From the IMG/VR virus record IMGVR_UViG_3300020189_000039, positions 1 to 34,480 of that record: a DNA stretch of 34,480 bases. One strand, 5' to 3'. Made by a program: the position numbers and the translations under genes. Positions 7,911-34,480 of this stretch are shown here, one piece after another; position 1 is the stretch's first letter, and each line of letters begins with the position of its first letter. The notes under the pieces were generated by a model. It was not told the origin of the DNA. It was given only the letters and a program-made list of their open reading frames with translations, and did no database searches. This stretch comes from a virus.

Positions 7911-7912
7911 CA

Positions 7913-14989: not shown

Positions 14990-15063
14990 TAAGCAGTTTT
15001 TCTTTCTCGCAGCTTGACGCCTTTGATAGGATATCTAAGGACACCTAGACCTGGAGAAACGAT

Positions 15064-15807: not shown

Positions 15808-15823
15808 CCAATAGGAGCCTGGA

Positions 15824-17365: not shown

Positions 17366-17369
17366 CATA

Positions 17370-17393: not shown

Positions 17394-17402
17394 AACTGAG
17401 TC

Positions 17403-20699: not shown

Positions 20700-21031
20700 T
20701 GGCAGTAGGAGATCGCACCGAAGGTAGACTTATTGGTCCGTCAGCAGTAGGAACTTCTGACACCACTCTTGGTACTGTCCCAGCAAGTCGCCTTTGGGTA
20801 GTTAAGCAAATCATGATCACGAACACAAATGGTGTTGACGCGTGGGTGACGATCGCTATTGGCTCCACTGGTACAGCGAGTAACGCGATTTTCTATCAAC
20901 TACCTGTTGCTGCTAACGATACTGTTATTTTCGACACTGCTTTAGTAATCACTGCCGCGGAAACTTTACGAGCTGTTGCTGATCGCACTGGTGTGAATAT
21001 CACTGGTGTTGGCTGGGTGAAGGAAGTCTGA
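20699..21031 (+). CDS. Small structural protein, first of a three-member family (110 aa)
   Basis: The 110-residue product has a core of alternating beta strands (TVPASRLWVVKQIMITNTNGVDAW, then AANDTVIFDTALVITAAETLRAVAD). The proteins at 27788 and 31158 show the same plan: an early V(S/V)SSI-like strand, a NEHY/AIFYQ segment, then an A-x-DTV strand and a hydrophobic end. This looks like a small fibre-associated or capping protein found near phage tail genes; the exact role is unknown. The ATG overlaps the previous stop (TAATG), and its own stop overlaps the next start (TGATG). Confidence 0.75.
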   Translation: MAVGDRTEGRLIGPSAVGTSDTTLGTVPASRLWVVKQIMITNTNGVDAWVTIAIGSTGTASNAIFYQLPVAANDTVIFDTALVITAAETLRAVADRTGVNITGVGWVKEV

Positions 21032-21918
21032 TGGCTATTGACGCTGCTTTGGGGCGTCTTGGGATTAGGCCCGGGGTATGCACTAGTTCAACGCGCCCCG
21101 CGAACCCCTTTGAGGGTCAGGTTATTTACGAGACTGATACGAATAACATTCGTTTCTGGTCTGGTTCTGCGTGGGAAAGCAATAAGGGCGGGATCGTTTC
21201 TTCTTCTGCTCCTACTGGGGCGGCTGCTGGGGATATTTGGTATGACTCTGATGACGGTCGTGCCTATATTTATTATGATGATGGTTCTTCTCAACAGTGG
21301 GTTGAGTTTGGTGCTCCTCCGTCTGGTTCTTCTATCACTCTGGCCTCTTACGCTGATTCAGCGGCCAGAGATGCCGCAATAACTTCTCCGACAGAAGCAG
21401 ATTTGGTCTACCTACAAGACACAAACGCTATTCAGTTCTACGATGGATCGTCTTGGAAAGGTATCAGCAAGATGACAAAAGTTGCAGCATTTACGAGTTC
21501 TGGTACTTGGACGGTGCCTGCTGGTGTGACGTATGCGGTCGCCCATATCCGTGGCGGAGGCGGCGGTACTACAAGCGGGACTACGGCGACGCAAGGTGAC
21601 GGCGGCGACTCGTCGGTGGCGTTCGCCGGTGGCACCGTCACCGCCGAAGGCGGTGGTGGAATCCTCATCGTGGGCCAGAATACCTACTACGGACACGCTG
21701 CCGGACCGCCTAATAGTGGGCAAGGCGCAACAGGCACAGCCGGAGCCAACGCCTACTCATCCGGCGGCAAGGGCGCAGACGGTGCCTACATCGTGGCCGG
21801 TGACACCGTGACACCTGCCGCCAGCATCGCCGTGACTGTGGGTGCTGGTGGCACCGCAGGGACCGTCGGAGCCGCTGGTGGTTCTGGCTACGTGTGGATC
21901 GAATATCAGGAGTCGTGA
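21031..21918 (+). CDS. Glycine-rich tail fibre protein (295 aa)
   Basis: The N-terminus RLGIRPGVCTSSTRPANPFEGQ opens the PGVC-type display module that is also in the genes at 23140, 24288 and 34270. A second display module follows (SSSAPTGAAAGDIWYDSDDG...QQWVEFG). A linker (LYDTNAIQFYDGSSW type, near 120-140) leads to TSSGTWTVPAGVTYAVAHIRGGGGG and a Gly-rich domain to the end (GGTAGTVGAAGGSGYVWIEY). Its C-terminus differs from the six core glycine-rich fibres, lacking their closing module. It is coupled to both neighbours by TGATG overlaps. Confidence 0.8.
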   Translation: MAIDAALGRLGIRPGVCTSSTRPANPFEGQVIYETDTNNIRFWSGSAWESNKGGIVSSSAPTGAAAGDIWYDSDDGRAYIYYDDGSSQQWVEFGAPPSGSSITLASYADSAARDAAITSPTEADLVYLQDTNAIQFYDGSSWKGISKMTKVAAFTSSGTWTVPAGVTYAVAHIRGGGGGTTSGTTATQGDGGDSSVAFAGGTVTAEGGGGILIVGQNTYYGHAAGPPNSGQGATGTAGANAYSSGGKGADGAYIVAGDTVTPAASIAVTVGAGGTAGTVGAAGGSGYVWIEYQES

Positions 21919-22205
21919 TGAGTGAACGTGTCGTAGCCGTGCTAGACGGCAGCGTCGTCGCGAACGTGGTCGTTGTTGGTGCCGACTGGGTGGCCCCTGC
22001 CGATGGGTCGATGGTCGAGTACACGACCGGCTACCCGGCTGCTATCGGCTGGGAGTACGACGGCACAGGGTTCATCCCACCTCAGCCGTACCCGTCGTGG
22101 GTGCTCACCGACTATGTGTGGGAAGCACCTGTCGCTTTGCCTGATGACGGCCAGTCGTATGTTTGGGATGAGACGACGGTTAGTTGGCAGGTGGTGAGTA
22201 ACTAA
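21918..22205 (+). CDS. Small fibre-locus protein, PPQP-SWVL family (95 aa)
   Basis: The open frame reaches back to 21894, but the ATG at 21918 overlaps the previous TGA (TGATG), so I chose it. The second half reads IGWEYDGTGFIPPQPYPSWVLTDYVWEAPVALPDDGQSYVWDETTVSW, clearly related to the 127-residue protein at 30108, which carries a longer middle part. Relatives are common near fibre genes of aquatic phages, by my recollection, with no assigned function. The aromatic and proline content suggests a small virion or assembly protein. The N-terminus MSERVVAVLDGSVVANVVVVG corresponds to MAHYAFLDENNIVTEVIVG there. Confidence 0.75.
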   Translation: MSERVVAVLDGSVVANVVVVGADWVAPADGSMVEYTTGYPAAIGWEYDGTGFIPPQPYPSWVLTDYVWEAPVALPDDGQSYVWDETTVSWQVVSN

Positions 22206-23140
22206 TGCCTTTATCTTTCCCTGACGCCCCCTCAGTAAACGATACCTATACCGTAGGTGATCTGACTTATACGTGGAACGGAACTGTCTGGCGTGTAAGT
22301 GCAAAGCAAATCTCTATTGACTATCTTGTTGTTGCTGGTGGGGGCGCTGGAGGTAAGGGTGCAGGCGCTCAGTCCACTGCTATTGGTGGTTCCGGTGGTG
22401 GCGGTGCAGGCGGTATGAAGACTGGGACAACGCCCTGTATTGTCGGCAGCAATTATCTTGTAACGGTTGGTGCTGGTGGAAGTATTGGTGCAGCATCTAG
22501 GGACAGCGGTAATAACGGGACTTCTAGTGTATTTAGTGTTGCTTACGTTTATGGCGGCGGTGGTGGTGGCGGAGGTCATATTCTGGCTGGCATTGACGGT
22601 GGTTCTGGAGGTGGCTCGGCCTGTGATAACGCTGGTGCAGGTAGTCCAGTATCTGGTCAAGGAAATAGCGGTGGCAATGGCGGCGGCACCAACGGCGGCG
22701 GAGCAGGTGGTGGCGGAGCGGGTGCTGTAGGAGGTAACGGGGCATCTAGCGCTACTGGGACAGGTGGAGATGGCGGTAACGGTGTAGCGTCGTCCATAAC
22801 AGGCTCTTCTGTTTACTATGCTGGCGGTGGTGGTGGCGGAGGTGGCCTGAACGGTTCTGTCGGAGGTTCTGGTGGACTTGGCGGCGGCGGTGATGCTCAC
22901 GGTGGTGGGGGCGGATCTGCTACAGCCGGTACTGCCAATACTGGTGGTGGCGGAGGCGCAGGTTCTGACGGCGCTGGCGGTGCTGTTGCCGGAGCAGGTG
23001 GTTCTGGTGTTGTGATTATCAGGTTCCCTACCGCGTCTGGCTCTCCAACCGTATCTGCTGGGCTAACTTCTTCTTCTACAACTGATGGTACTGATACCGT
23101 GGTGACGTTTACGGCGGGAACTGGGACGGTGACTTGGTAA
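22205..23140 (+). CDS. Glycine-rich fibre protein, array member 1 (311 aa)
   Basis: The N-terminal cap (MPLSFPDAPSVNDTYTVGDLTYTWNGTVW) is shared with genes at 27553, 30506 and 32573. IDYLVVAGGGAGG opens a long glycine-rich domain with many GGGG blocks, containing the conserved SSITGSSVYYAGGGGG segment. GSGVVIIRFP then leads to the closing module SAGLTSSSTTDG...FTAGTGTVTW. Poly-glycine fibre domains of this type are known to form lattice-like receptor-binding tips in other phages. It overlaps both neighbours by TAATG. Member of a six-protein family in this window. Confidence 0.85.
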   Translation: MPLSFPDAPSVNDTYTVGDLTYTWNGTVWRVSAKQISIDYLVVAGGGAGGKGAGAQSTAIGGSGGGGAGGMKTGTTPCIVGSNYLVTVGAGGSIGAASRDSGNNGTSSVFSVAYVYGGGGGGGGHILAGIDGGSGGGSACDNAGAGSPVSGQGNSGGNGGGTNGGGAGGGGAGAVGGNGASSATGTGGDGGNGVASSITGSSVYYAGGGGGGGGLNGSVGGSGGLGGGGDAHGGGGGSATAGTANTGGGGGAGSDGAGGAVAGAGGSGVVIIRFPTASGSPTVSAGLTSSSTTDGTDTVVTFTAGTGTVTW

Positions 23141-24297
23141 TGGCTGTTTCTTCTACTTCTTCAGGTTCTCTTAAAACAGGGGTATGTCTTTCAACAGACC
23201 GCCCAGATAACCCGTTCACCGGACAAGTCATCTTTGAAACCGATACCGGCAAAGTGTTTGTGTGGGCCGGATCAACATGGGTAAACATTGGTGATACGTC
23301 TGGTGAAGGTGTGCAGTTGCCTTCTGGTACTACCGCCGAGCGCCCCTCGTCTCCTACTGCCGGTCAGATGAGATTCAATGAGACGACCGGTGAACCTGAG
23401 TATTATCACTCCGCTGCTGGATGGTTGAAGTTTAGGAGCGCTCCAGAACTTACCGTATCGTATCTGGTAATTGCTGGCGGCGGCGGTGGTGGTGGTGCCA
23501 TTCGTGGCGGCGGTGCTGGTGCTGGCGGCTACCGAAACTCGTACGCCTCCGAAACCTCCGGCGGTCTTAGTAGCGGTGAAACACCCCTCACCCTCTCCTA
23601 TAAGACTTCTTATTCGATTACTGTTGGTGCAGGCGGTAACTCTGGCGCATACAGTGCCAGCAATGGGGCAGTTGCTGGGACAAACGGAAGCGACTCTAGT
23701 TTTTCTGGCATTACTTCCACAGGTGGCGGTGGTGGTGCTGCCAGTGATAGTCCGGGTACAGGTAGGAGCGCTGGTGCTGGCGGTTCTGGTGGCGGTGGTT
23801 GGTACGGGTCTAACTCGCCCCCTGGTGCTGGTACAGCAAATCAGGGTTTCGGGGGTGGTTCTGGTGGCAACAGCCCTCCCTATGGCGGCGGTGGCGGCGG
23901 TGCCGGTCAGGCTGGCCGAGCCTACAATGATGGATCTGATCCAAACGGTGGCGGCGACGGTCTTGAGTCGTCTATTACTGGGTCAGCAGTTTACCGTGCC
24001 GGTGGCGGTTCTTCTTCAGATTACACTGTGGCATCTAACAGGCCCGGAGGTCTAGGTGGCGGCGGCGTAGGAACAAACCTTACTGGCGTTACGCCTCCAG
24101 TAGCCACCGCCAACGGTACTGCGAATACTGGTGGCGGCGGCGGTGCTTCTGGTAATGGTGGATCAGGTACTGTGATTCTCCGGTACGACGGTCCAGCCCC
24201 CACAGTTTCTGCTGGGTTGACGTACACGATTTCAAATGTGGGTTCCGATAAAGTTATAGAATTCACCGCTGGAACAGGAACAGTATCATGGGGCTAA
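23140..24297 (+). CDS. Glycine-rich fibre protein, array member 2 (385 aa)
   Basis: The ATG at 23140 overlaps the previous stop (TAATG). The PGVC-like display module (TGVCLSTDRPDNPFTGQVIFETDTG) comes first. QLPSGTTAERPSSPTAGQMRFNETTGEPEYY follows, almost the same as in the gene at 32573. SYLVIAGGGGGGG opens the glycine-rich body, with a SSITGSAVYRAGGG segment. GSGTVILRYD leads to the closing module (SAGLTYTISNVGSDKVIEFTAGTGTVSWG). The 3' end overlaps the following gene by ten bases within the ATGGGGCTAA junction, which is repeated near the end of the window. Confidence 0.85.
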   Translation: MAVSSTSSGSLKTGVCLSTDRPDNPFTGQVIFETDTGKVFVWAGSTWVNIGDTSGEGVQLPSGTTAERPSSPTAGQMRFNETTGEPEYYHSAAGWLKFRSAPELTVSYLVIAGGGGGGGAIRGGGAGAGGYRNSYASETSGGLSSGETPLTLSYKTSYSITVGAGGNSGAYSASNGAVAGTNGSDSSFSGITSTGGGGGAASDSPGTGRSAGAGGSGGGGWYGSNSPPGAGTANQGFGGGSGGNSPPYGGGGGGAGQAGRAYNDGSDPNGGGDGLESSITGSAVYRAGGGSSSDYTVASNRPGGLGGGGVGTNLTGVTPPVATANGTANTGGGGGASGNGGSGTVILRYDGPAPTVSAGLTYTISNVGSDKVIEFTAGTGTVSWG

Positions 24298-24498
24298 GTA
24301 ACTCTGTACCGAACAGTATTCTCCAGCCGGGAGTCTGCACCTCAACAACCCGTCCTGCTTTGCCATACGAGGGGCAGGTCATCTTTGAGACCGACACCAA
24401 CTACACGTACGTCTATGATGGTAGTGCGTGGCGGATCTACATTGGTTCTGCGGGCACCCCGATCTTCCTGAACGGTCAAACGATCTCCACGGATTACA
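24268..24498 (+). repeat. Long direct repeat, copy A
   Basis: Matches 34250-34480 at 224 of 231 positions by direct comparison. It covers the last codons of a glycine-rich fibre gene and the first 70 or so codons of the next gene. The repeat probably extends beyond the window end. Confidence 0.95.
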
Positions 24499-24599
24499 CG
24501 ATCCCGTCAGGATACAATGGTGTTTCTGCTGGCCCCATTACTATTGCTGATGGAGTAACAGTAACAGTGTCTTCTGGTAGTGAGTGGAGTATCGTATGA
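24288..24599 (+). CDS. Small display-module protein (103 aa), copy A
   Basis: Starts inside the end of the previous gene. MGLSNSVPNSILQPGVCTS opens the display module (TRPALPYEGQVIFETDT, YVYDGSAWRIY). A tail then has TPIFLNGQTISTDYTI, and DGVTVTVSSGSEWSIV ends the protein. The end resembles the tail of proteins built around a carbohydrate-binding-like beta strand set, but I cannot name a family. The near-identical second copy at 34270 shows only silent changes in the visible part. ATGA at 24596-24599 couples it to the next gene. It is probably a small fibre tip or connector. Confidence 0.8.
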   Translation: MGLSNSVPNSILQPGVCTSTTRPALPYEGQVIFETDTNYTYVYDGSAWRIYIGSAGTPIFLNGQTISTDYTIPSGYNGVSAGPITIADGVTVTVSSGSEWSIV

Positions 24600-25114
24600 G
24601 TAGGTTAACGGTCGGGTCTATTGAGGGTTTGACAGAGAACAGTAATGTTATTTCTGTCCCTACCGGTCATACGTTGAACGCTGTTGACGGGTTACAGATC
24701 GGGGGGACAGCGGTCGGCAAGTGGGTGGACTATTCCGGCTCACAGACGTTCAACGCGAATCTTACTGTCGGGAACGGCACGATTCAGAGTTACTACGCCG
24801 TCGTGAACGATGTCGTTTTTTGGCGTGGAGAGTTCACTCTCGGAAGCACCTCGGCAGTTGGCGGAACGATCGACGTAGTAGCCCCGATAACCCCGATCGG
24901 CGGAACCGGCGAACAATGGCCGGGGGTGTGCCGAGCGGGTATTAGCAGTGTTTTTTATCCCGGGTTCCCGCTCCAAGTCGGCGTAAGTTTTCGGATGACA
25001 AGAATCCAAGAAACCGGGGGAACCGCCCGAACCGGCGATTATGCGCCGACTTTACCCGCTACTTGGGGACCCGGTGACACCTTCCAATGGTGGATCACTT
25101 ATCAGGCGGCATGA
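24596..25114 (+). CDS. Fibre-locus structural protein with lectin-like look (172 aa)
   Basis: The frame extends upstream to 24584, but the ATG at 24596 overlaps the previous TGA (ATGA). The N-terminus MSRLTVGSIEGLTENSNVI resembles the short domain that leads many phage fibre tips (TVGSI-x-GL). A beta-rich domain follows: VGKWVDYSGSQTFNANLTVGN, then YYAVVNDVVFWRGEFTLGS and a C-terminus GDTFQWWITYQA. Tip or receptor-binding function is plausible. Base composition is more GC-rich than the genes further right. No catalytic motif was seen. Confidence 0.75.
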   Translation: MSRLTVGSIEGLTENSNVISVPTGHTLNAVDGLQIGGTAVGKWVDYSGSQTFNANLTVGNGTIQSYYAVVNDVVFWRGEFTLGSTSAVGGTIDVVAPITPIGGTGEQWPGVCRAGISSVFYPGFPLQVGVSFRMTRIQETGGTARTGDYAPTLPATWGPGDTFQWWITYQAA

Positions 25115-25353
25115 TGACAATTCAACTCACCCTCACCCCATACGCCACAGTTGCCGACGCACCCGACGAGCATTGGGTCACCGAAATGCGGTTTGAGCGG
25201 AACCTGTTGCTTGCCAAATCGGACTGGACCCAGACCGCTGACGACCCAACCGGCAAAGCCGCAGAATGGGCTGCCTACCGTCAGCAGTTACGGGACTTCC
25301 CGTCTACTTGGACTCCCGCCCCCACTGCCGAGTTTCCGGAGGCCCCCCAGTGA
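25111..25353 (+). CDS. Tail fibre assembly-like small protein (80 aa)
   Basis: I chose the ATG at 25111, which overlaps the previous TGA (ATGA); the next ATG (25114) is an alternative. The protein reads MMTIQLTLTPYATVADAPDE, then EMRFERNLLLAKSDWTQTAD and KAAEWAAYRQQLRDFPSTW. The WxxYRQxLRDxPxxW ending, with a preceding DWTQ, is the mark of phage tail-fibre assembly or chaperone proteins. It is likely to act on a neighbouring fibre. It overlaps the next gene in a GTGA arrangement. Confidence 0.75.
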   Translation: MMTIQLTLTPYATVADAPDEHWVTEMRFERNLLLAKSDWTQTADDPTGKAAEWAAYRQQLRDFPSTWTPAPTAEFPEAPQ

Positions 25354-25940
25354 GTACCTTAAGGTTTAATACTTGGCAGAATACAGGGGGCACGGAAGCC
25401 GCTACCGCCAGCGAGGTTTCAGCATACTCGTTTACCGAGTCGGGGTTAAAGCCAATATCCTCCGCCACGTTCACCGCCGCCTCAGCAGTTTCGTTTCCAT
25501 CGGGAACATTTACGACAGACTATACAAAGTATCATGTTGTATTTACGTGTAGATGCAGCGTCTCTGGGGCGACACTCGGCGTACAAGCAAATGCGTCTGG
25601 TTCGCCGCTTACAGGGTCAAACTACTACGGGTTTACTCATCAAGTAAGACTAAATACTAGTGTAGTAAACACGGCAGCAACGAGTCATTCTCTAATGGCC
25701 TTAAACGCATCAAGCGCGCTGCAACTCCAATGCGCGTTTGCTATAGATGTTATCGATCCGGCAAACGCTTCCAATAAGACCGCATGGCATGGAACTTATT
25801 TTGGACACAACACGAGTTCCCAGTACGACACCGGCGCTACAGGTTGTGGGCTTAATATTACTGACTCATGTGACGGCTTTACAATGACGCCATCAACCGG
25901 AACAATTACAGGAGAATACAGTGTCTACGCCTATGTCTGA
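25350..25940 (+). CDS. Fibre-locus structural protein, STLRFNTW family (196 aa)
   Basis: The open frame reaches back to 25266, but the GTG at 25350 overlaps the previous stop (GTGA) and gives a start STLRFNTWQNTGGTEA. This matches the start of the gene at 26148 (ASILRFDNWENSLGTE). The middle is a beta-rich, Thr/Ser-rich domain (SSATFTAASAVSFPSG, YHVVFTCRCSVSGATLG, STSSQYD) that looks like a lectin-like tip, ending GTITGEYSVYAYV. Such proteins are common in aquatic phage fibre regions. The 3' end overlaps the following small gene by 20 bases. Confidence 0.75.
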   Translation: MSTLRFNTWQNTGGTEAATASEVSAYSFTESGLKPISSATFTAASAVSFPSGTFTTDYTKYHVVFTCRCSVSGATLGVQANASGSPLTGSNYYGFTHQVRLNTSVVNTAATSHSLMALNASSALQLQCAFAIDVIDPANASNKTAWHGTYFGHNTSSQYDTGATGCGLNITDSCDGFTMTPSTGTITGEYSVYAYV

Positions 25941-26148
25941 TCGCCCAACTATTAGCATCGGCAATGAGACAAGGCCGATGACGGATAAAGAATTGGAAAA
26001 CTACAATATTACGATTGTCGGCTTGCAGGAACAAGCCGCTGTTGCTGCTGCCGAGGCTGCTGCTAAACAATCCGCTATCGACAAACTTGCGGCTCTCGGC
26101 CTTTCGGTGGATGAAATCCGGGCCGCGTTCGGTTTGGAGGGTAACTAA
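25921..26148 (+). CDS. Small assembly-chaperone-like protein (75 aa)
   Basis: A GTG at 25921 follows AGGAG at six bases, so I kept it; the ATG at 25933 is an alternative. The product begins MSTPMSDRPTISIGNETRP and has an alanine-rich coiled-coil segment (EQAAVAAAEAAAKQSAIDKL). It ends AALGLSVDEIRAAFGLEGN, a pattern common in small phage tail chaperones. No further assignment is possible. Its stop overlaps the next ATG (TAATG). Confidence 0.7.
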   Translation: MSTPMSDRPTISIGNETRPMTDKELENYNITIVGLQEQAAVAAAEAAAKQSAIDKLAALGLSVDEIRAAFGLEGN

Positions 26149-26627
26149 TGGCTTCTATTCTTCGTTTTGATAACTGGGAAAACTCTCTAGGAACAGAAGG
26201 TCCCAAACTTGATCTTTCCGGTAACCTTTCTGCAACACTCAAAGCACCATATGAATCATGGTCAATCGCCGCCTATGCTGCAACTGGAACAGCAGATGTA
26301 GATGTGGCAACATCGTCTGCTCACTACTGGACATCTGATGCGGCAGCAAACTGGACCATGAATTTCCGTGGCGATAGTGGTACGTCGCTGAATTCGCTTC
26401 TTGCAAGCAACCAATCCGTCACCGTCGTAGTTCTAGTAACAAACGGTGCAACGCCCTACTACCCGACCGCTTTTACCGTTGACGGAACATCTGTAACACC
26501 GGAATGGTCAGGTGGGTCGGCACCATCGTCGGGAAATGCTAGCAGCATTGATTCCTATCTTTTCACAATTATTAAAACCGCTGATGCCACGTTCACGGTT
26601 CTTGCTCAGCAGGTTCAGTTTGCGTGA
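26148..26627 (+). CDS. Fibre-locus structural protein (159 aa)
   Basis: MASILRFDNWENSLGTEGPKLDLSG starts the protein, like the STLRFNTW gene before. The body, about 40-150, has VDVATSSAHYWTSDAAANWTMNF, GTSLNSLLASNQSVTVVVLVTNG and SYLFTIIKTADATFTVLAQQVQF. The AANWTxNFRGD and TVLAQQVQF segments recur in many phage fibre proteins, by my recollection, and suggest a small lectin-like fold. Function is uncertain. This is the last tightly overlapped gene before the next glycine-rich fibre, which follows after nine bases. Confidence 0.72.
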   Translation: MASILRFDNWENSLGTEGPKLDLSGNLSATLKAPYESWSIAAYAATGTADVDVATSSAHYWTSDAAANWTMNFRGDSGTSLNSLLASNQSVTVVVLVTNGATPYYPTAFTVDGTSVTPEWSGGSAPSSGNASSIDSYLFTIIKTADATFTVLAQQVQFA

Positions 26628-26636
26628 GGTTAACTG

Positions 26637-27506
26637 ATGCCTATTTTGAGTGCTGTTTCTTCACCGGCTAGAGGTGTTGGTAGATTTAAGTTTGGTTCTG
26701 GACCGCCTCCATCTTTTACCTATCTTGTTATTGCTGGTGGAGGTGGTGGTGGTCAAGGTAAGTTTGCTGGCGGCGGTGGTGCTGGCGGATATGTTGAAGG
26801 AACTTTATCTGCGTCATCTCAGATGTCTATAACTGTTGGCGGCGGCGGTCCTGTTTTTACTACTGGATCTAATTCTTCTATAGATTCATCTGTTGTTGCC
26901 TACGGTGGAGGTAGGGGCGGTGATTATGGAAGTAGTTCTACGATTGGAACTGGCGGCAACGGAGGGTCCGGTGCCGGTGGTGGAGGCATAAACACGACAT
27001 CTGCTGCATGGCCAGCTGGCTCAGCAACACAAACATCACCCACTGGGGGGACTGGTTATGGGAACAATGGTGGTACCGGATGGCACAACTATGGAACATA
27101 TGCTGTTGGCGGTGGTGGTGGCGGTGCCGGTCAAGTGGGTGGAAATAGAAGTGGCTCCACTGCTGGAAAAGGTGGAAACGGACGTGCATCCTCAATAACA
27201 GGAGCGTCTGTTACTTATGCTGGTGGTGGTGGTGGCGCCGGAGGAGACACAGGTTTCGGTAATACTGGTGGGTCTGGCGGCGGTGGAACTGGGGCTACAG
27301 AAAACAACGGTGCCACGAGTGGTGGAGAAAATCTTGGTGGCGGTGGCGGAGGTAAGGCTTCAGGTGGATCTGGTGTAGTCATAATAAGTTTTGATTCTGC
27401 TTACGATGCCCCAACAATTCCTGCTGGTATTGTTTATGAGGAAATAATTTCAGGATCAAATAGGATTATCAAATTTAAGTCTGGAACTGGCAATATCAGT
27501 TGGTAA
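26637..27506 (+). CDS. Glycine-rich fibre protein, array member 3 (289 aa)
   Basis: A short lead (MPILSAVSSPARGVGRFKFGSGPP) replaces the usual cap. TYLVIAGGGGGGQGKFAGGGGAGGY then opens the glycine-rich body, and SSITGASVTYAGGGG marks the conserved SSITGS segment. SGVVIISFDS leads to a closing module PAGIVYEEIISGSNRIIKFKSGTGNISW. Codons are more T/A-rich than in member 1. The ATG follows AGGTTAACTG. It ends before an AT-rich gap carrying TATA-like elements. Confidence 0.85.
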   Translation: MPILSAVSSPARGVGRFKFGSGPPPSFTYLVIAGGGGGGQGKFAGGGGAGGYVEGTLSASSQMSITVGGGGPVFTTGSNSSIDSSVVAYGGGRGGDYGSSSTIGTGGNGGSGAGGGGINTTSAAWPAGSATQTSPTGGTGYGNNGGTGWHNYGTYAVGGGGGGAGQVGGNRSGSTAGKGGNGRASSITGASVTYAGGGGGAGGDTGFGNTGGSGGGGTGATENNGATSGGENLGGGGGGKASGGSGVVIISFDSAYDAPTIPAGIVYEEIISGSNRIIKFKSGTGNISW

Positions 27507-27552
27507 GACTTAAATAAATGTTACTATAAAATATATTATCTGGAGGTTTTAT
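27507..27552 (+). promoter_or_regulatory. AT-rich gap with TATA-like promoter candidate and strong ribosome site
   Basis: TATAAA at 27525-27530 and TATTAT at 27534-27539 lie before a GGAGG (27542-27546), seven bases from the ATG at 27553. It is one of few real gaps in the fibre locus and could start a new transcript. No -35 was fixed. Confidence 0.3.
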
Positions 27553-27786
27553 ATGGCAATCAATTTTCCTGACAGCCCAAACAATAATGATACTATAACA
27601 ATACAAGGTGTTACTTGGGTGTGGAATGGTACATATTGGAAGCGTATTGTTGGCGGCGTGACAGATGTTATACCATCTTTAACTGTAGATAATGATTTGA
27701 CAGTTGGCGGAAATGTGAATGTTTCTGGTACTATAACAGGTGTAGAAGATAAATCACCTATGATTATGTTATTGATGGGAGTGTAA
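27553..27786 (+). CDS. Cap-domain fibre protein (77 aa)
   Basis: The protein begins with the cap also found in genes at 22205, 30506 and 32573: MAINFPDSPNNNDTITIQGVTWVWNGTYW. A shaft-like TVDNDLTVGGNVNVSGTITG follows, and it ends DKSPMIMLLMGV. At 77 residues it is a short version, cap plus one shaft segment, lacking the glycine-rich body. The last residues (LLMGV) resemble those of the 211-residue protein at 30506 (LLMGA), which is likewise followed by a 109-residue partner. It has a strong Shine-Dalgarno. It may be an assembly cap or connector. Confidence 0.75.
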   Translation: MAINFPDSPNNNDTITIQGVTWVWNGTYWKRIVGGVTDVIPSLTVDNDLTVGGNVNVSGTITGVEDKSPMIMLLMGV

Positions 27787-27787
27787 T

Positions 27788-28117
27788 ATGGCTTCAAGCT
27801 ATAAACTTTTAGGGCAAGTGGCACCCACCGCCACCACTACAACAACATTATATACTTGTCCTTCAGCTACAGAAAGTGTTATTTCTACTATTTCTATTTG
27901 TAATAGAGGAAGTTCTGCTACAACATATCGTCTTTCCGCAAGGCCTTCAGCTAGCAGTTTAGCTAATGAACATTATATAGCTTATGATTCTGCTATTGAT
28001 GCTAATGATACCGTTTTAGTTACGGCTGGTTTTGCTTTGGCGGCGGATCATATTATTGAAGTTTATGGCGGTAATGGTGATCTTTCTTTTGTTGCTTTTG
28101 GTATGGAGATAACGTGA
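27788..28117 (+). CDS. Small structural protein, second of three-member family (109 aa)
   Basis: MASSYKLLGQVAPTATTTTTLYTCPSATESVI is followed by STISICNRGSSATTYRLSARP, then LANEHYIAYDSAIDANDTVLVTAGFAL. The plan and many residues match the gene at 31158 and, more loosely, 20699. It starts one base after the previous stop and ends one base before the glycine-rich fibre gene. The repeated order cap protein - 109-residue protein - glycine-rich fibre occurs twice (27553-29495 and 30506-32395), suggesting that the trio is a functional unit. Codons are T-rich. Confidence 0.78.
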   Translation: MASSYKLLGQVAPTATTTTTLYTCPSATESVISTISICNRGSSATTYRLSARPSASSLANEHYIAYDSAIDANDTVLVTAGFALAADHIIEVYGGNGDLSFVAFGMEIT

Positions 28118-28118
28118 T

Positions 28119-29495
28119 ATGGCGTTATTTAAGTTGTCTGATGGCGGCTGGTCTAAGTCTAGAACACCGTTTAAGTCTAACTATCTAGGTTCTGGTCCTT
28201 CAGCTTTTTCTGATTCCACGCTTGCTACTATTACTTATGGTGAAAGTTTTTCTGATCAGGTAGTTGCTAATGCTCCTGCTGGGTCTCGTGCCACAAGATA
28301 TAATATTACTTCTGGTTCTTTGCCATCTGGTTTAGTTTTGGATAGTAGAACTGGTGTTGTTTCTGGTACTTCTGATGCTAGTGAGTCGTATGCTTTTACT
28401 GTGACTGCTTCTAATCCTAATGGTTCTGTTTCTGAGTCGTATACTGGGGCTACTGCTGATGCTCCTACTTGGTCGGTGAATACTTTGGGTGATTTTACTG
28501 ATACAGTATCGTATTCGGATAGTGTTTCTGCTACTGCAAGGCCTGCCGCAACGTATAGTGTATCTGCTGGTTCTTTGCCTCCTGGTATATCTTTAAATAC
28601 TTCTAATGGTACTCTCAGCGGGGCACCGTCTGGTGCAGGGAATGCTTTTTCTTTTACGATTACTGCAACAAATATTGCTGGTTCTGTTAGTCAAGATTTT
28701 AGTGGAAATATACTACAAAATTCACCTGATTTTGTTTATTACTTAGTTGTTGCTGGCGGTGGCAATTCTGGTAGCGGAAACTTTGCTGGCGGTGGTGGTG
28801 CTGGCGGTTACAGATCGTCTTGGGCTGGAGCAAGTGGAACAGAGTTATCTGGCAGAAATACGGCAGTTGAATCACCCTTTACACCGGTAAAAGACACCGC
28901 ATATACCGTCACTGTTGGTGGAGGTGGAAGTAATAGCACGTTTGCCAGCATTACCTCAACAAGAGGTGGTTACGGAAACGGTGCTGGTGCTGGTGGTTCA
29001 GGCGGTTCTGGCGGCGGTGCCGGTGACGATCTAAATAACTATGGTCAACCGGGGGGTTCGGGTACGGCGGGACAAGGTTTCAATGGTCAGGGTTCGTGGG
29101 ATAACAGTGGTGGTGCTGGCGGTGGCGCTAGCGGAAATGGGAATTTGCATGGCGGCCCCGGACTAACTTCTACTATTACTGGTTCTTCTGTAACCATTGC
29201 CGGTGGCGGAGGTGGTTCACGTTCATATGCCACTCCAGGTGATGGACGCAACGGCGGCGGTAACGGTGGGCAGTGGAATGGCCGCAATGCTTCCAGTGGT
29301 AGTGCTAATACTGGTGGTGGTGCTGGTGGCGGTTCAAGGTCGCAAGCTACTTATGGTGGATCTGGTGTTGTGGTTCTTAGATTTCCTGATGTTTTCAACC
29401 CGGCTATATCTGCGGGTTTGACGTATAGTAGTACTAATGTTGATTCTGACACCGTATTGCGATTTACTGGAGGAACTGGTACAATTACTTGGTAA
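28119..29495 (+). CDS. Glycine-rich fibre protein with two Ig-like domains, array member 4 (458 aa)
   Basis: After MALFKLSDGGWSKSRTPFKSN there are two tandem putative-Ig domains, about 35-110 and 115-195. Each has the ATYGESFSD/TVSYSDSVSA, then GSLP(S/P)G(L/I)-x-L-x(3)-G-x-(V/L)-SG(T/A)P pattern. YYLVVAGGGNSGSGNFAGGGGAGGY then starts the glycine-rich body, with SSITGS in the form TSTITGSSVTIAGGGGGS. SGVVVLRFP leads to the closing module SAGLTYSSTNVDSDTVLRFTGGTGTITW. The extra Ig-like domains make it longer than most members. The stop overlaps the next ATG (TAATG). Confidence 0.85.
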   Translation: MALFKLSDGGWSKSRTPFKSNYLGSGPSAFSDSTLATITYGESFSDQVVANAPAGSRATRYNITSGSLPSGLVLDSRTGVVSGTSDASESYAFTVTASNPNGSVSESYTGATADAPTWSVNTLGDFTDTVSYSDSVSATARPAATYSVSAGSLPPGISLNTSNGTLSGAPSGAGNAFSFTITATNIAGSVSQDFSGNILQNSPDFVYYLVVAGGGNSGSGNFAGGGGAGGYRSSWAGASGTELSGRNTAVESPFTPVKDTAYTVTVGGGGSNSTFASITSTRGGYGNGAGAGGSGGSGGGAGDDLNNYGQPGGSGTAGQGFNGQGSWDNSGGAGGGASGNGNLHGGPGLTSTITGSSVTIAGGGGGSRSYATPGDGRNGGGNGGQWNGRNASSGSANTGGGAGGGSRSQATYGGSGVVVLRFPDVFNPAISAGLTYSSTNVDSDTVLRFTGGTGTITW

Positions 29496-29989
29496 TGAGC
29501 ACAAATCCATTAACAGAGTCATATAAGACTATGAAATCAAATGTTCTTTCTGATAGTTTTCCTTGGTATACTCAGAATACAGGATGTGATGATTTTCAAT
29601 TTTTTTGCCATATAGTTGTTGGTCGCCCTGAGCGCAATGCTATGAAGCTGCCAGTTATACAGTCAGATATTGCTAATCTTTGCTGTGAAGTTGTTTCTCA
29701 AATCTGTGAGGCAAATAATAAAACTATAGAGTGTATTTACAGAATGGCGTTTAATCTAGTTCCTGCGTATAAAGATCATCCTATTTTTTCTAATCCACAT
29801 ATTGATCATGAATTTCCTCATACAAATCTTATTATTCATTTAACTGATGCTGGTGGAGCAACCGTAGTGGAAGGGGTTCGCTTTGAGGCAGAGGAAGATG
29901 GGGTGGTTTTTTTTCAAGGAGAGCACTTTATGGAATTCCCTAAGTCGAAAAATCGTGTAGTTCTTGTGACTACTTTTTTGGAAAGCTGA
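29495..29989 (+). CDS. 2-oxoglutarate/Fe(II)-dependent oxygenase (prolyl hydroxylase-like)
   Basis: The frame extends to a TTG at 29489, but the ATG at 29495 overlaps the previous TAA. Numbered from it, the facial triad is His102 and Asp104 (PHIDHEFPH) with distal His144 (FFQGEHFMEFP), and Arg154 (SKNRVVLVTTF) fits the 2OG-binding arginine. The double-stranded beta-helix strands around 110-160 are as expected. The enzyme would hydroxylate a protein side chain or similar substrate using O2 and 2-oxoglutarate. At 164 residues it is compact, like those in other aquatic phages. Its place among glycine-rich fibres and the collagen-like triplets at 15064 suggests fibre hydroxylation, which is inference. 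Confidence 0.82.
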   Translation: MSTNPLTESYKTMKSNVLSDSFPWYTQNTGCDDFQFFCHIVVGRPERNAMKLPVIQSDIANLCCEVVSQICEANNKTIECIYRMAFNLVPAYKDHPIFSNPHIDHEFPHTNLIIHLTDAGGATVVEGVRFEAEEDGVVFFQGEHFMEFPKSKNRVVLVTTFLES

Positions 29990-30059
29990 TGCTGTATCGT
30001 TAATAAATTTATTTTGGATGGTGATACTTTCAAGGCAAATAGTTTTTAAACACAAAATA

Positions 30060-30076
30060 TGCTATACTATATAGCA
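30060..30076. promoter_or_regulatory. 17-bp palindrome over a TATACT -10
   Basis: TGCTATA and TATAGCA flank CTA exactly. TATACT (30063-30068) sits within, so the dyad would cover a -10 box 30-odd bases before the ATG at 30108. It could be an operator for a promoter serving the downstream genes. The gap upstream (29990-30059) shows nothing else clear. Confidence 0.45.
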
Positions 30077-30107
30077 AAATGAACTTAAAAACAGTGAGGT
30101 ATACAAC

Positions 30108-30491
30108 ATGGCACATTATGCTTTTCTTGACGAAAACAATATAGTTACAGAAGTTATTGTTGGTCGTGACGAAGATGAAGTAGTGGACGGCATCTCAGAT
30201 TGGGAAGTGTATTACGGTGATTTTCGCGGCCAAACATGTAAAAGAACATCATACAACACACAAGGTGGACAGCACACAGGTGACGGTACACCCTTCCGCA
30301 AAAACTATGCTGGTATAGGTTATAGTTATGATGAGGGTCGTGATGCTTTTATTCCACCTCAACCATATGATTCATGGGTGTTGAATGAGGATACTTGTTT
30401 ATGGGATGCACCTGTAGCATATCCTGATGATGGTGAGGCATACACTTGGAATGAGGAAACTACTTCTTGGGATGCCCTACCTGCTGAATGA
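30108..30491 (+). CDS. MAHYAFLD-type fibre-locus protein (127 aa)
   Basis: The product begins MAHYAFLDENNIVTEVIVG and continues through TCKRTSYNTQGGQ, RKNYAGIGYSYDEGRDAFIPPQPYDSWVL and WDAPVAYPDDGEAYTWNEETTSWDALP. This is a recognisable small protein of aquatic phage fibre regions, without known function. The shorter 95-residue paralogue at 21918 lacks the middle (about residues 30-68) but keeps the IPPQP-YDSWVL core. A third, broken copy lies at 32397. GAGG lies eight to nine bases before the ATG. It opens a new gene group behind the palindromic promoter candidate. Confidence 0.85.
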   Translation: MAHYAFLDENNIVTEVIVGRDEDEVVDGISDWEVYYGDFRGQTCKRTSYNTQGGQHTGDGTPFRKNYAGIGYSYDEGRDAFIPPQPYDSWVLNEDTCLWDAPVAYPDDGEAYTWNEETTSWDALPAE

Positions 30492-30505
30492 TAGCTGGTT
30501 GATTT

Positions 30506-31141
30506 ATGGCGATTGATTTTCCGGCGACACCAAATGTAGGTGATGTTTATTCTGACGGCGGGCGTTCTTGGCGTTGGAATGGTTCAGGTTGGACTAGCAG
30601 AGGTGCACCTTCTCAAACTTTTACTACGTCTGATACTGCACCGGCTTCTCCTAATGTTGGTGATGTTTGGTTTAATTCTTCGTCTGGCATAACATACATT
30701 TATTATGATAGTGTGTGGGTAGAGATTGGTAATACGGCGGCGGTAACTTCTTTTATTGCTGACACGGATGCTGATACTACAATTAAAGCTGAGGAGTCTT
30801 CTGATGAAGATCGTTTACGATTCGATATTGCTGGTAATCAAGTTATGCTTATTGATCCCAGTGGTGTTAGTGTTGATGGGTCTGCTACTGTTAACTATTT
30901 ATTGTCTTCTGGTGATGTTGATGGTGCTACCATTAATGGATCTTATGTTGTTTCTTCTGGTCCTGTAGCTGGTCAGTTGGTTATTACTGGTACGAGTGCT
31001 GGTGAGCCTACTGATGTTGTTTCTGATGGCGGTATTTTGATTGATACTAATACTAATACTTTGTATTTTAGGTCTAATTCTGTTTGGCAGGCTGCTGGTC
31101 AGTCTGGTGGTTTAAGCCCGTTTTTGTTGATGGGCGCATAG
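30506..31141 (+). CDS. Cap plus display-module fibre protein (211 aa)
   Basis: The FP-x-TPN-x-GD cap (MAIDFPATPNVGDVYSDGG, then WRWNGSGW) is followed by one display module (TSDTAPASPNVGDVWFNSSSG...WVEIGNTAAVTSFIAD). A DTTIKAEESSDEDRLRFDI segment, also in the gene at 32573, and SVDGSATVNYLLSSGDVDGAT come next. The C-terminus has TNTLYFRSNSVWQAAGQSGG and ends LLMGA. Codons end mostly in T. It has no glycine-rich body. The arrangement with the next two genes repeats the trio seen at 27553-29495. Confidence 0.8.
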   Translation: MAIDFPATPNVGDVYSDGGRSWRWNGSGWTSRGAPSQTFTTSDTAPASPNVGDVWFNSSSGITYIYYDSVWVEIGNTAAVTSFIADTDADTTIKAEESSDEDRLRFDIAGNQVMLIDPSGVSVDGSATVNYLLSSGDVDGATINGSYVVSSGPVAGQLVITGTSAGEPTDVVSDGGILIDTNTNTLYFRSNSVWQAAGQSGGLSPFLLMGA

Positions 31142-31157
31142 TTTGTGAGGAGTTTTT

Positions 31158-31487
31158 ATGGCTACTAATTATAAGGTTTTAGGTCAGGTTGCGCCGTTGG
31201 CTACGACTGCAACGACTGTGTATACGGTGCCGTCTGCTACTCAAACGGTAGTTTCAAGTATTACGGTATGCAACCGTTCTGCAACAGACGGAACATTTCG
31301 TCTAGCAGTTCGACCTGATGGGGCAACGCTTGCTAACGAGCATTACGTTGTGTATGACACCGCTGTTTCTGGTAACGATACTGTTGTATTGGTCATGGGT
31401 TTAACGTTAGATGCAGGTGACATATTAGAAGGTTACGCTTCTTCTGCTGACATGTCATTTAATGTTTACGGGTCTGAGATTAGTTAA
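31158..31487 (+). CDS. Small structural protein, third of three-member family (109 aa)
   Basis: Sequence MATNYKVLGQVAPLATTATTVYTVPSATQTVVSSITVCNRSATDGTFRLAVRP, given here in outline, parallels the 109-residue gene at 27788 almost residue for residue in plan, including LANEHYVVYD and the NDTVVLV strand. It ends ADMSFNVYGSEIS where the other ends DLSFVAFGMEIT. AGGAG lies before the ATG. It ends just before a glycine-rich fibre start (TAATAATGG). Confidence 0.8.
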   Translation: MATNYKVLGQVAPLATTATTVYTVPSATQTVVSSITVCNRSATDGTFRLAVRPDGATLANEHYVVYDTAVSGNDTVVLVMGLTLDAGDILEGYASSADMSFNVYGSEIS

Positions 31488-31489
31488 TA

Positions 31490-32395
31490 ATGGCTGTTCT
31501 CTCCGTAAGAAACTCTGGACTTACCGGAGCAAGTTATAGAAGGCCGTCTCAAGCTAAAGGGCAAAGGCCTCTTGAAATTCAATACCTTGTTGTTGCCGGT
31601 GGCGGTGGTGGTGGTAAGGATGTTGGTAATGGTGGTGGAACAGGTGGAGGTGGTGCTGGTGGTTACAGAAGTTCCTATATGTCAGAGTCATCTGGCGGAG
31701 GTGGCTCGACCGAAGTAACTATCAGCGGTACTATAAATACAAACTATACAGTAACTGTTGGTGGCGGTGGAGCTTCAATGGCAAAGGGTTCAAATTCCAC
31801 TTTTGGTACTATTACTTCAATTGGTGGTGGGTTCGGTGGTGGTTATAGCGCTTCGCAGACAGGTGGTTCTGGCGGTTCTGGTGGTGGCGCTAACTACAAT
31901 GCTTCTGGTGGTGCGGGCACATCGAGTCAAGGATATGATGGTGGCAGTTCAGTTTATGGATCACCATACAATGGTGCAGGTGGCGGTGGCGCTGGAGCCG
32001 TAGGGACTTCTGGTGGCAATCCTGTAGGAGTTGGAGGTGTTGGCGTCTATTCTTCTATTACTGGTTCTAGCGTCCCCCGTGCCGGTGGTGGTGGTGGTGG
32101 TAATCGTGGTTCATCTAGCGGCGGTTCCGGTGGTGCAGGTGGGGGTGGTAGAGGTGCGGGGACTAGTTCCGGACCTGTTGGCGGTTCAGCAAATACCGGT
32201 GGTGGTGGTGGTGGTGCTGGACAAGGAACTACTACATTAAATGGTGCTGGTGGTGGATCTGGTGTAGTTATTCTTCGTTATCCTAGCGATTACACGATTA
32301 TTATTCCTGCAGGACTTACTGCTGCCACTGTAAGTGATGGTTCTGATAGGGTGACGACGGTTACTGCAGGCTCTGGCAATGTGTATTGGGTCTAA
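31490..32395 (+). CDS. Glycine-rich fibre protein, array member 5 (301 aa)
   Basis: A short basic lead (MAVLSVRNSGLTGASYRRP) precedes QYLVVAGGGGGGKDVGNGGGTGGGG. The glycine-rich body contains TITSIGGGFGGG and the SSITGSSVPRAGGGGGG segment. SGVVILRYP and the closing module PAGLTAATVSDGSDRVTTVTAGSGNVYW end the protein. It starts two bases after the previous stop. It is the third member of the second trio. A degenerate MAHYAFLD gene begins two bases after its stop, marking a deletion or decay point. Confidence 0.85.
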   Translation: MAVLSVRNSGLTGASYRRPSQAKGQRPLEIQYLVVAGGGGGGKDVGNGGGTGGGGAGGYRSSYMSESSGGGGSTEVTISGTINTNYTVTVGGGGASMAKGSNSTFGTITSIGGGFGGGYSASQTGGSGGSGGGANYNASGGAGTSSQGYDGGSSVYGSPYNGAGGGGAGAVGTSGGNPVGVGGVGVYSSITGSSVPRAGGGGGGNRGSSSGGSGGAGGGGRGAGTSSGPVGGSANTGGGGGGAGQGTTTLNGAGGGSGVVILRYPSDYTIIIPAGLTAATVSDGSDRVTTVTAGSGNVYWV

Positions 32396-32396
32396 T

Positions 32397-32423
32397 TTGG
32401 CTCACTACGCATTTCTTGACTAA
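32397..32423 (+). pseudogene. Remnant of a MAHYAFLD-type gene
   Basis: TTG GCT CAC TAC, then GCA TTT CTT GAC TAA, reads (M)AHYAFLD-stop, identical to the first eight residues of the protein at 30108. A change of GAA to TAA would account for the stop, and the ATG is TTG. Nothing recognisable of the protein follows, so the rest is deleted or decayed. Confidence 0.7.
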
Positions 32424-32572
32424 AGAATTTCTACATAATATATACATCTATAAAACTTTTATAGATGTATCAAACTCTTGTCATGTTATAGTTGATTTGC
32501 AGGCGGTTGTTTAACGTTTTTGTGGAATTATTTATTACTATTACTGTGTAGCATTGTTAAAATGGGTGTATT
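32424..32572 (+). promoter_or_regulatory. AT-rich gap with a perfect 14-bp inverted repeat
   Basis: Arms ATACATCTATAAAA (32442-32455) and its exact reverse complement (32457-32470) flank a single C, giving a 29-base dyad. The rest of the gap is AT-rich and carries several TATA-like stretches before the ATG at 32573. GGGTG is the only ribosome-like site. The dyad may be a hairpin, operator or crossover site. Confidence 0.6.
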
Positions 32573-34279
32573 ATGGCAATAAGTTTTCCGGCAAATCCTA
32601 ATGAAAATGATAGTTTTACTTCTAATGGTAAAACTTGGGTTTGGTCTGGCGGCAGATGGAAAATAGTAGGTGCCTCTAACCGTGGTTTAAGCTTAGAAAT
32701 TTCTGACGTCGCACCATCTAACCCTGTTCAAGGTGATATGTGGTATGAATCTGATTCTGGTAGAACATACACATATTATGATAATGTTTGGATAGAGCTG
32801 GGTAATACCTCTGCTGTCTATTCTTTTATTGCTGATGATGATACTGATACTTTAATTCAAGTAGAGGAATCCGCGGATGAAGATGTTATCAGGTTTGATG
32901 TTGGCGGCGTAGAGAAAGCTGTCTTGGATTCTTCTGGTTTAAGTATTACTGGTGACATAGAGGTTTCTGGTTCTTATGTCGGGTTAAGTTCTGATTCTGT
33001 CAGGGACGCTGACAATGATACTAAGGTTGAGGTTGAAGTCACTGCTGACAGTGACGCTATCAGGTTTACTACTGCGTCTACTCCTAGGTTTGAGGTGACT
33101 TCTGCTGGTCATATTATTCCTTCTGAAGATGTAACTTATGATTTAGGTTCTTCTAGTTACAGGTTTCGTGATCTATACTTGTCTGGTAATACTATTGATT
33201 TGGGTGGGGCAACAATTTCTTATGATGGAACAAATCTTCATATGGGTGCAATCAAGATGGATCCCTCTGGGACTGGTGCTAACATGATGCCGTCTGGCAC
33301 TACCGCTGAACGTCCTGTTTCTCCGACTGCTGGAATGTTTAGATTTAACGAGACGACAGGTGAGCCGGAATGGTATTCACCCGCTGCTGGGTGGTTGAGT
33401 TTTAGGGAGTCCCCGTTTATTCTTGCCTATCTTGCTGTTGCTGGTGGCGGTGGTGGTGGAGCCGGTATATCGGGCGATACCGGTGGTGGCGGAGGCGCTG
33501 GAGCTGTAATACATAAAACGCTTCTTACTGGCACAAAAGGGACATATACTGTAACCATTGGTTCTGGTGGCAGCGGAGGTGCTGCGAACACCGGTAATCG
33601 CGGATCTACCGGCAACGATACCACTATTGTTTTTCCAGATACATTTACTCTCACTGCTAAGGGCGGCGGCGGTGGCGCTTCGTCGGGGGGTGCTGCAACC
33701 TCTGGAGGATCTGGCGGCGGTGGTACGCGAGAGGCAGTAAATTATCAGTCTGGAGCTAGCGCTGTAACTACAAACTCTGTCCCCAGCGGTGCAAATGTTT
33801 ATGGCAATGATGGCGGCGACGGTGCGCCGGGAGCCGCTGGCGGCGGTGGTGGCGCTGGTGAGGCAGGTGTCACCGATGGTGTTGGCGATGGTGGAGATGG
33901 TGTTCAGATAAACATTGATGGCAACAACTACTACTGGGGTGGCGGCGGGGGAGGCGCTATTGAAGGTGAAGGTGGACTCGGCGGAGGCGGAGGAGGAGGA
34001 AGACTCGGTGCCGGTGGCGGTAATGCAATCAACTCGGGTCAAACACCGACAGGAGATGATGGCGGGGCAGGGGGCACAAACACCGGCGGTGGCGGTGGTG
34101 GGGGTGTCAACCCAGAAGATGCCGGTGGCAACGGTGGCTCCGGTATTGTTATTTTTCTCTACAATAATTCAGATCTACCCACGATTTCTGCTGGTCTAAC
34201 GTACACAACTTTCGCAGTTGGCGGCAGCACTACCGCTGCGACTATTACTGCTGGAACAGGAACAGTATCATGGGCCTAA
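32573..34279 (+). CDS. Long composite glycine-rich fibre protein, array member 6 (568 aa)
   Basis: It combines most modules of the locus: the cap (MAISFPANPNENDSFTSNGK, WVWSGGRW), a display module (SDVAPSNPVQGDMWYESDSG...WIELGNTSAVYSF), and a DEDVIRFDVGG segment. A shaft with VTYDLGSSSYRFRDLYLSG and the SGTTAERPVSPTAG/FNETTGEPEWY module shared with the gene at 23140 follow. A glycine-rich body begins at LAYLAVAGGGGGG; a C-terminal GIVIFLYN strand and a closing module SAGLTYTTFAVGG...TAGTGTVSWA end it. The last ten bases overlap the next gene, as at 24288. Early codons are T-rich; the 3' part is richer in GC, a sign of mosaic assembly. Confidence 0.85.
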   Translation: MAISFPANPNENDSFTSNGKTWVWSGGRWKIVGASNRGLSLEISDVAPSNPVQGDMWYESDSGRTYTYYDNVWIELGNTSAVYSFIADDDTDTLIQVEESADEDVIRFDVGGVEKAVLDSSGLSITGDIEVSGSYVGLSSDSVRDADNDTKVEVEVTADSDAIRFTTASTPRFEVTSAGHIIPSEDVTYDLGSSSYRFRDLYLSGNTIDLGGATISYDGTNLHMGAIKMDPSGTGANMMPSGTTAERPVSPTAGMFRFNETTGEPEWYSPAAGWLSFRESPFILAYLAVAGGGGGGAGISGDTGGGGGAGAVIHKTLLTGTKGTYTVTIGSGGSGGAANTGNRGSTGNDTTIVFPDTFTLTAKGGGGGASSGGAATSGGSGGGGTREAVNYQSGASAVTTNSVPSGANVYGNDGGDGAPGAAGGGGGAGEAGVTDGVGDGGDGVQINIDGNNYYWGGGGGGAIEGEGGLGGGGGGGRLGAGGGNAINSGQTPTGDDGGAGGTNTGGGGGGGVNPEDAGGNGGSGIVIFLYNNSDLPTISAGLTYTTFAVGGSTTAATITAGTGTVSWA

Positions 34280-34480
34280 GTAACTCTGTACCGAACAGTA
34301 TTCTCCAGCCGGGAGTCTGCACCTCAACAACCCGTCCTGCTTTGCCATATGAGGGGCAGGTCATCTTTGAGACCGACACCAACTACACGTACGTCTATGA
34401 TGGTAGTGCGTGGCGGATCTACATTGGTTCTGCGGGCACCCCGATCTTCCTCAATGGTCAAACAATCTCCACGGACTATA
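34250..34480 (+). repeat. Long direct repeat, copy B (runs off the window)
   Basis: Second copy of 24268-24498, offset by 9982 bases. The seven visible differences are all in third codon positions of the small display-module gene; one of them also changes the last residue of the overlapping fibre gene (Gly to Ala). Confidence 0.95.
34270..34480 (+). CDS. Small display-module protein, copy B (3'-partial)
   Basis: The first 70 codons are visible: MGLSNSVPNSILQPGVCTS, TRPALPYEGQVIFETDT, YVYDGSAWRIY and NGQTISTDY are the same as in the gene at 24288. The protein is unchanged, and all seven nucleotide differences are silent in this frame. The start lies inside the end of the composite fibre gene, exactly as in copy A. 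The frame is still open at the last base of the window. Whether the downstream genes (24596 onward) are also duplicated cannot be seen. Confidence 0.9.
   Translation, partial: MGLSNSVPNSILQPGVCTSTTRPALPYEGQVIFETDTNYTYVYDGSAWRIYIGSAGTPIFLNGQTISTDY

Follow-up and report, generated by a model that had tools for sequence, protein, structure and literature searches.

Cyanophages carry many 2OG oxygenases, and the roles put forward for them in the accessible parts of the literature include DNA repair and 2OG depletion. DNA repair is proposed in PMC2984593, PMC3037559, and PMC9146016, modulation of 2OG in PMC3037559, decoration of metabolites or of the capsule in PMC7824862, and protection from antibiotics by a halogenase in PMC9964418. 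Protein modification appears among the general roles listed in PMC9602691 and PMC9964418, and EGLN3-like folds are described as widespread in marine phages (PMC12774648), again as far as the accessible text of these sources goes. In the part of the open literature covered by our searches, we found no proposal that such enzymes modify fibres. One of their families, PHROG 274 (T4-GC 100), is labelled "DNA endonuclease V" or "denV"; in their accessible text, one source reports no denV homologue in any cyanophage (PMC2984593) and another lists denV in 13 genomes (PMC3037559). A member of this family lies among tail fibre genes in the contig of a freshwater phage analysed here (IMGVR_UViG_3300020189_000039), all 34,480 nucleotides of which we refer to as the window.

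The oxygenase and its family name

The open reading frame at 29495-29989 (+ strand) begins with ATG and encodes 164 aa; an alternative TTG start is located 6 nt upstream. The original prediction had called its product a 2OG-Fe(II) oxygenase with His102, Asp104, His144, and Arg154 as ligands. Numbered from the ATG at 29495, these are the exact positions of the HxD...H iron triad and of the distal Arg for 2OG by which the 2OG-Fe(II) superfamily is recognised. All four residues are conserved without exception in our alignment (A1; 16 of 16 sequences) and in a larger set of aligned relatives (82 of 82), where D104 lies inside the peptide pattern that retrieved most of the relatives and H102, H144, and R154 lie outside it. 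The AlphaFold2 model, built from an alignment of 41 sequences (mean pLDDT 94.8, pTM 0.90), has a double-stranded beta-helix fold, and its best match among solved structures is 6n1f (Z 15.5 over 153 residues, rmsd 2.5), followed by PiuC (Z 13.5), PHD2 (Z 13.3), AlkB (Z 12.8), and the Pseudomonas putida P4H (Z 12.6). The invariant ligands and the predicted fold support the assigned class, and we are highly confident that the protein functions as a 2OG oxygenase. Whether the substrate is protein or DNA is not distinguished by the fold search: the modelled structure matches prolyl hydroxylases (Z 12.2-13.3) about as well as it matches AlkB.

The PHROG 274 profile matches residues 4-162 (E 8.9e-25), and tblastn with the protein hits 54 phage records, all of cyanophages; its identity to relatives is 28-44%. 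Because of the profile match, the tblastn hits, and the pLDDT and pTM of the model, we do not regard the reading frame as a chance one. No Pfam family matched the window oxygenase itself at E<=1; PF13640 was matched in 8 of the 16 family members, at best with 6.3e-6. In a search of the PDB by sequence, the only hits below E 0.02 were designed proteins, none a 2OG oxygenase.

Many of the 54 tblastn records carry the "DNA endonuclease V" or "denV" label. We reject this identity: PF03013 (Pyr_excise, the Pfam family of DenV) matched none of the 16 family members at E<=1, and it matched a separate open reading frame in 5 of 10 cyanophages. To judge from these profile matches, the label looks wrong, a misnomer for a 2OG oxygenase that apparently propagates through phage annotation. 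The genome of P-RSM4 (NC_015283.1) illustrates this: its annotated denV, PRSM4_164 (136062-136577), is the 2OG oxygenase, whereas the true Pyr_excise gene, two genes before it, is annotated as "DNA binding protein" (PF03013 match at 134627-134920, within PRSM4_162). The same division of labels is probable for S-CAM1, S-WAM1, S-CAM9, and ACG-2014b, four genomes in which PF03013 likewise hits a different reading frame. Another label of this kind may be wrong too: a member of phrog_2954 ("ferrochelatase") beside the oxygenase of contig L180 (4418-5014) contains an HxD motif suggestive of a further 2OG oxygenase.

The fibre operon and its cassette

In sequence, the window resembles actinophages and does not come from a cyanophage: the primase that it encodes has 82% identity (67% coverage) to that of Actinomycetia phage DSL-LC01 and about 51% to those of Microbacterium phages. 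For window positions 13900-32500 there was no DNA match in the phage collection. Fibre genes form a cluster at 15064-34279, and those discussed here are on the + strand. Directly upstream of the oxygenase, a fibre gene (28119..29495) encodes a putative Ig domain (He_PIG, PF05345, 1.1e-18) and a Gly_rich_2 domain (PF21722, 3e-7). It is preceded by a gene for a 109-aa fibre-module protein (27788..28117), which has a counterpart at 72% identity in L180, a contig that also has the oxygenase. Downstream of the oxygenase is a gene of phrog_7759 (30108..30491, match 8.4e-42), a recurrent neighbour of Gly-rich fibres. The cluster is modular, since the set starting at 27553, 27788, and 28119 is repeated by a set starting at 30506, 31158, and 31490, and the oxygenase and phrog_7759 genes lie between the two. 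According to PHROG matches and module comparison, the repeated set consists of a fibre module with an N-terminal motif that we call DFP (30506..31141, the first gene), a second copy of the 109-aa protein gene (31158..31487), and a Gly-rich fibre gene (31490..32395, Gly_rich_2, 6.1e-11); a further Gly-rich fibre gene follows (32573..34279, Gly_rich_2, 4.8e-14). The predicted position of the oxygenase between fibre genes is therefore borne out. A regular-expression scan of the window fibres found only short Gly-rich stretches and no Pro-rich GXY or collagen-type repeat, and collagen was rejected as a substrate within the window. In the sister actinophage DSL-LC01, which does not have this oxygenase, a glycosyltransferase and a Trp halogenase are encoded near genes annotated as collagen-like (OQ999401.1, 101148-107690).

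The overlap of the oxygenase with the stop of the glycine-rich fibre gene was also predicted correctly: at the TAATG junction, the last A of the TAA stop of 28119-29495 is the first base of the oxygenase ATG. The translational coupling that was read into this overlap is another matter. On the one hand, the operon has four further 1-nt start/stop overlaps, at 20699, 21031, 22205, and 26148, so the TAATG junction is ordinary for it, a local habit that we reject as evidence of special coupling and that makes the overlap a weak argument. On the other hand, the linkage to fibres itself recurs in unlike phages. A GGAGG about 21 bases before the ATG is too distant for a usual ribosome site; it fits re-initiation without proving it. 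A sigma-70-like match lies just upstream (29457-29485); such matches in the region total 2, against 4.0 expected by chance, and we therefore claim no separate promoter for the oxygenase. The scan of the region around the gene found no terminator. The GC content of the oxygenase gene is 36.4%, compared with 51.0% for the window, 38.8% for the adjacent 109-aa gene, and 41.0% for the initial part of the fibre gene.

Close relatives of the window phage make the distal part of the cluster visible as a unit. Contig L262 is 99.8% identical to window positions 3985-23491 over 19,519 bases and then diverges, and the records of L262 (G005) and of contig L261 (G004) go on with other distal fibres (L343, L344). 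Neither record has a match to the oxygenase, which gives a near-identical phage without the fibre of 28119 and without the enzyme. The lack of a match in a third record (L260, G003, 14,725 bases) is uninformative, as it ends at window position 23264, before the position of the oxygenase. Three contigs quite unlike that of the window, L180-L182, share with it the 109-aa module (72%), the N-terminus of the fibre at 28119 (49-50%), and the oxygenase (42-43%). They are the only 3 of 240 loci fetched by three neighbour genes that have an oxygenase match, and they are nearly identical to one another; on sequence similarity, they represent one independent case of this fibre and the oxygenase being joined across phages. 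Comparison among these contigs shows the oxygenase coming and going with a particular fibre, inside an exchangeable tail-fibre cassette.

That two phages 99.8% identical over 19.5 kb (the window and L262) have wholly different distal fibre clusters is an observation in its own right. A direct repeat of at least 232 bases brackets a 10-kb block with the oxygenase; its copies (24265..24496 and 34247..34478, + strand, 97%) are 9,982 bases apart, and the contig ends two bases after the right one. Such a repeat could have a role in recombination; it is also a point at which an assembly can be interrupted or go wrong.

Genomic settings of the family

The fibre setting is a minority setting of the family. 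When 80 family loci were classed by matching text patterns to the names of their neighbours, 18 had gp44 and/or dam alongside and 5 had a Gly-rich open reading frame within 3 kb; the rest are beside a second 2OG-like gene (phrog_2696, 15 loci), phrog_605 (14), an exonuclease (8), or phrog_1574 (3), or are without a class (17). The gp44/dam context was also found in 4 of 12 regions from isolates, and of the 15 loci that come next in similarity (L351-L365), 13 lie outside fibre settings. On a phylogenetic tree (a quick search with SH-aLRT only, in which 13 of 55 rows have no context label), the fibre setting needs five changes, at least two of them forced by starred branches; therefore, members of this family have entered or left fibre neighbourhoods at least twice. 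The pairing of the window with L180 has a support of 91 and is not starred. Viral contigs searched with the single window protein yielded no relative. A search of genome contigs with another alignment (A3) addresses the HxDHxFPH[KT]N signature only, and it gave one pattern match and none confirmed by tblastn.

Besides the window, we identified seven fibre settings with this type of enzyme (L180-L182, L363/L364, L092, L065, L076/L078, L158, and Synechococcus phage Bellamy). In L180-L182, a Gly-rich fibre is accompanied by a phrog_7759-like gene, phrog_2954, a PF13640 enzyme, and the oxygenase (43%), with a Trp halogenase (PF04820, 6.3e-25) after it. L363 and L364 have the same gene order: a Gly_rich_2 fibre, the oxygenase, a PF13640 enzyme, a phrog_7759-like gene, and a Gly-rich fibre. 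In L065, a carbamoyltransferase (PF16861, 7.4e-60; 4346-5989) directly precedes the oxygenase between two long tail fibres, in L076/L078 the oxygenase is behind a Trp halogenase (phrog_2928, 3.5e-142), and in Bellamy it is directly behind a Gly-rich fibre. Loci with another 2OG gene near a phrog_7759 gene and without this enzyme include L103, L111, L112, L118, L137/L178, L143, and L144.

Counts of proximity point the same way, modestly, and are partly seeded from the same loci. The commonest Pfam family among open reading frames near phrog_7759 genes was PF13759 (6/150); PF13640 occurred in two of these and in 2/145 of those far from such genes. For Pfam 2OG families, the near-far contrast is weak (8/150 versus 2/145, p=0.058); it compares the first 150 of 199 near frames with a random 145 of 152 far ones, with a cut at 2.5 kb that both far hits barely exceed (2.65 and 2.79 kb). 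Our own 2OG profiles, several of whose seeds come from the same loci, gave 12/199 versus 2/152 (p=0.021). In 240 loci fetched by other genes, 11 of 19 2OG reading frames were within 1 kb of a Gly-rich one, compared with 190 of 625 other frames (p=0.013), some of the profile seeds again having been taken from the loci under test; in the same loci, the excess had p=0.05 within 3 kb, and there was none within 200 bases (2/19 versus 65/625). A rotation test pooled over nine related cyanophage genomes, one of ten having been dropped for lack of PF21722, placed 10 of 77 within 3 kb (3.1 expected, p=0.015) and 32 of 77 within 10 kb (9.0 expected); it was positive for the pool but not genome by genome, where p values were mostly 0.03-1. 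Across 50 records, taken mostly for fibre-neighbour genes, PF13640 was present in four, phrog_274 in five, and a Trp halogenase in two, and most had none. Judged by the gene neighbourhoods, the linkage of 2OG enzymes to Gly-rich fibres is more than one accident, as it involves several unlike phages and several 2OG families. In a relative of the window phage (L289, record G021), fourteen PF13640 matches occur in a row within 13 kb (50994-64025), and the record has no Gly-rich fibre match.

Possible substrates and known systems

Sequence and model establish the ligands, the predicted fold, and the location of the gene within the fibre operon. The statement that we rate most likely, although as a whole and with its substrate included we hold it tentatively, is that a PHROG 274 oxygenase in an exchangeable fibre cassette hydroxylates that fibre or another virion adhesin. 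H102, D104, and H144 would hold Fe(II) and R154 would hold 2OG; by analogy with the superfamily, O2 and 2OG would be bound and succinate and CO2 released. The oxygenase would be made together with the fibre from the same messenger, and O2 activation would lead to hydroxylation of side chains of that fibre, for which 28119-29495 is the candidate, or of a different adhesin of the virion, either while the protein is being synthesised in the host or afterwards. The hydroxylation may alter the stability, assembly, or binding of the modified protein. The original proposal that the enzyme modifies fibre proteins thus gains from the recurrent linkage to Gly-rich fibres and loses from the fact that the family is more often found in replication and other settings and that the fold is indifferent to substrate; it is better supported than before and unproven.

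Other substrates have to be weighed against this. The enzyme might act on a small molecule, either making a secondary metabolite or glycan decoration together with the halogenase, the carbamoyltransferase, and other 2OG enzymes, or burning 2-oxoglutarate to shift host nitrogen signalling. The halogenase and carbamoyltransferase of the islands do have small-molecule relatives, and in marine virus AG-345-E15 (L347, 5360-7110) a 2OG oxygenase precedes a Trp halogenase that shares 60% identity with the L180 halogenase. The genes beside that pair look like what we take to be sugar-nucleotide and glycosyltransferase genes. In the accessible text of the sources, decoration of a secondary metabolite or capsule is proposed for a cyanophage cluster (PMC7824862), as is 2OG modulation (PMC3037559). 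However, the window oxygenase has no adjoining halogenase or carbamoyltransferase, and the islands sit among fibre genes and change their enzyme content with the fibre, so we consider a small-molecule role unlikely. A host protein, such as one that acts in translation or in the envelope, would be a somewhat less probable target, hydroxylated to favour infection, with the fibre location reflecting late expression or a spot tolerant of insertions. The model does match P. putida P4H, for which one structure was determined together with EF-Tu, and cargo genes accumulate in the hypervariable fibre clusters; random cargo would not be expected to place several unrelated 2OG families beside Gly-rich fibres repeatedly.

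AlkB-like repair or base modification is suggested by relatives in the gp44-gp62-regA cluster, by the gp44/dam context (18/80 loci and 4/12 isolate regions), by the structural match to AlkB, and, in the accessible text, by the DNA repair role proposed in PMC2984593 and PMC3037559. However, the window copy belongs to a late fibre operon at a distance from the replication genes, the real DenV is encoded by a separate gene, and the family is spread over many settings, which leaves action on nucleic acid improbable, below a host protein in our ranking. The absence of the gene from a near-identical phage would suit a passenger without effect in the window phage, yet all catalytic ligands are intact and the fold is predicted with high confidence at only 28-44% identity to relatives; we regard this as very improbable.

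Hydroxylation of the fibre or another adhesin also has a wider form, which is of interest and which we consider possible rather than probable. Aquatic phages might carry exchangeable fibre-tailoring cassettes, in each of which a Gly-rich fibre is combined with a phrog_7759 protein and with at least one modifying enzyme that decorates the receptor-binding fibre, so that chemistry, in addition to sequence, would tune host range; the window would have the simplest, single-enzyme form. The cassette enzymes would include 2OG oxygenases of at least four families, a flavin Trp halogenase, and an O-carbamoyltransferase, in analogy to the tailoring of peptide natural products. If phages do modify their own fibres, hydroxylation, and perhaps halogenation, would join the ways in which a phage alters its adhesin, recombinant fibres would be without the modification, which would affect work with them, and a direct test by mass spectrometry would be possible on existing isolates, such as Bellamy.

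Among known systems, the closest are the PHROG 274/T4-GC 100 "denV" proteins of cyanophages, such as Bellamy gp55 and PRSM4_164 of P-RSM4, which are like the window oxygenase in having the same ligands and 28-36% identity to it over nearly the full length. All PHROG 274 isolates matched are cyanophages, some with copies in the replisome cluster, whereas the window is actinophage-like. The T4 DenV pyrimidine dimer glycosylase (PF03013) has only a database name in common with the family. Prolyl hydroxylases (PHD2/EGLN1 and bacterial P4H) resemble it in fold (Z 12.2-13.3) and in the pattern of ligands, with 12-14% identity among the matches listed. PiuC-type 2OG oxygenases have a similar fold at 10% identity (9ghl/9qn4, Z 13.3-13.5), but the window has no iron-uptake context. 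AlkB is likewise similar in fold at 10% identity (Z 12.8), with no repair genes near the window copy. In the cyanophage clusters of halogenase, carbamoyltransferase, and 2OG genes, the enzyme set overlaps with that seen here; in the accessible text of PMC7824862 these are metabolite or capsule enzymes, whereas here they are found among tail fibres.
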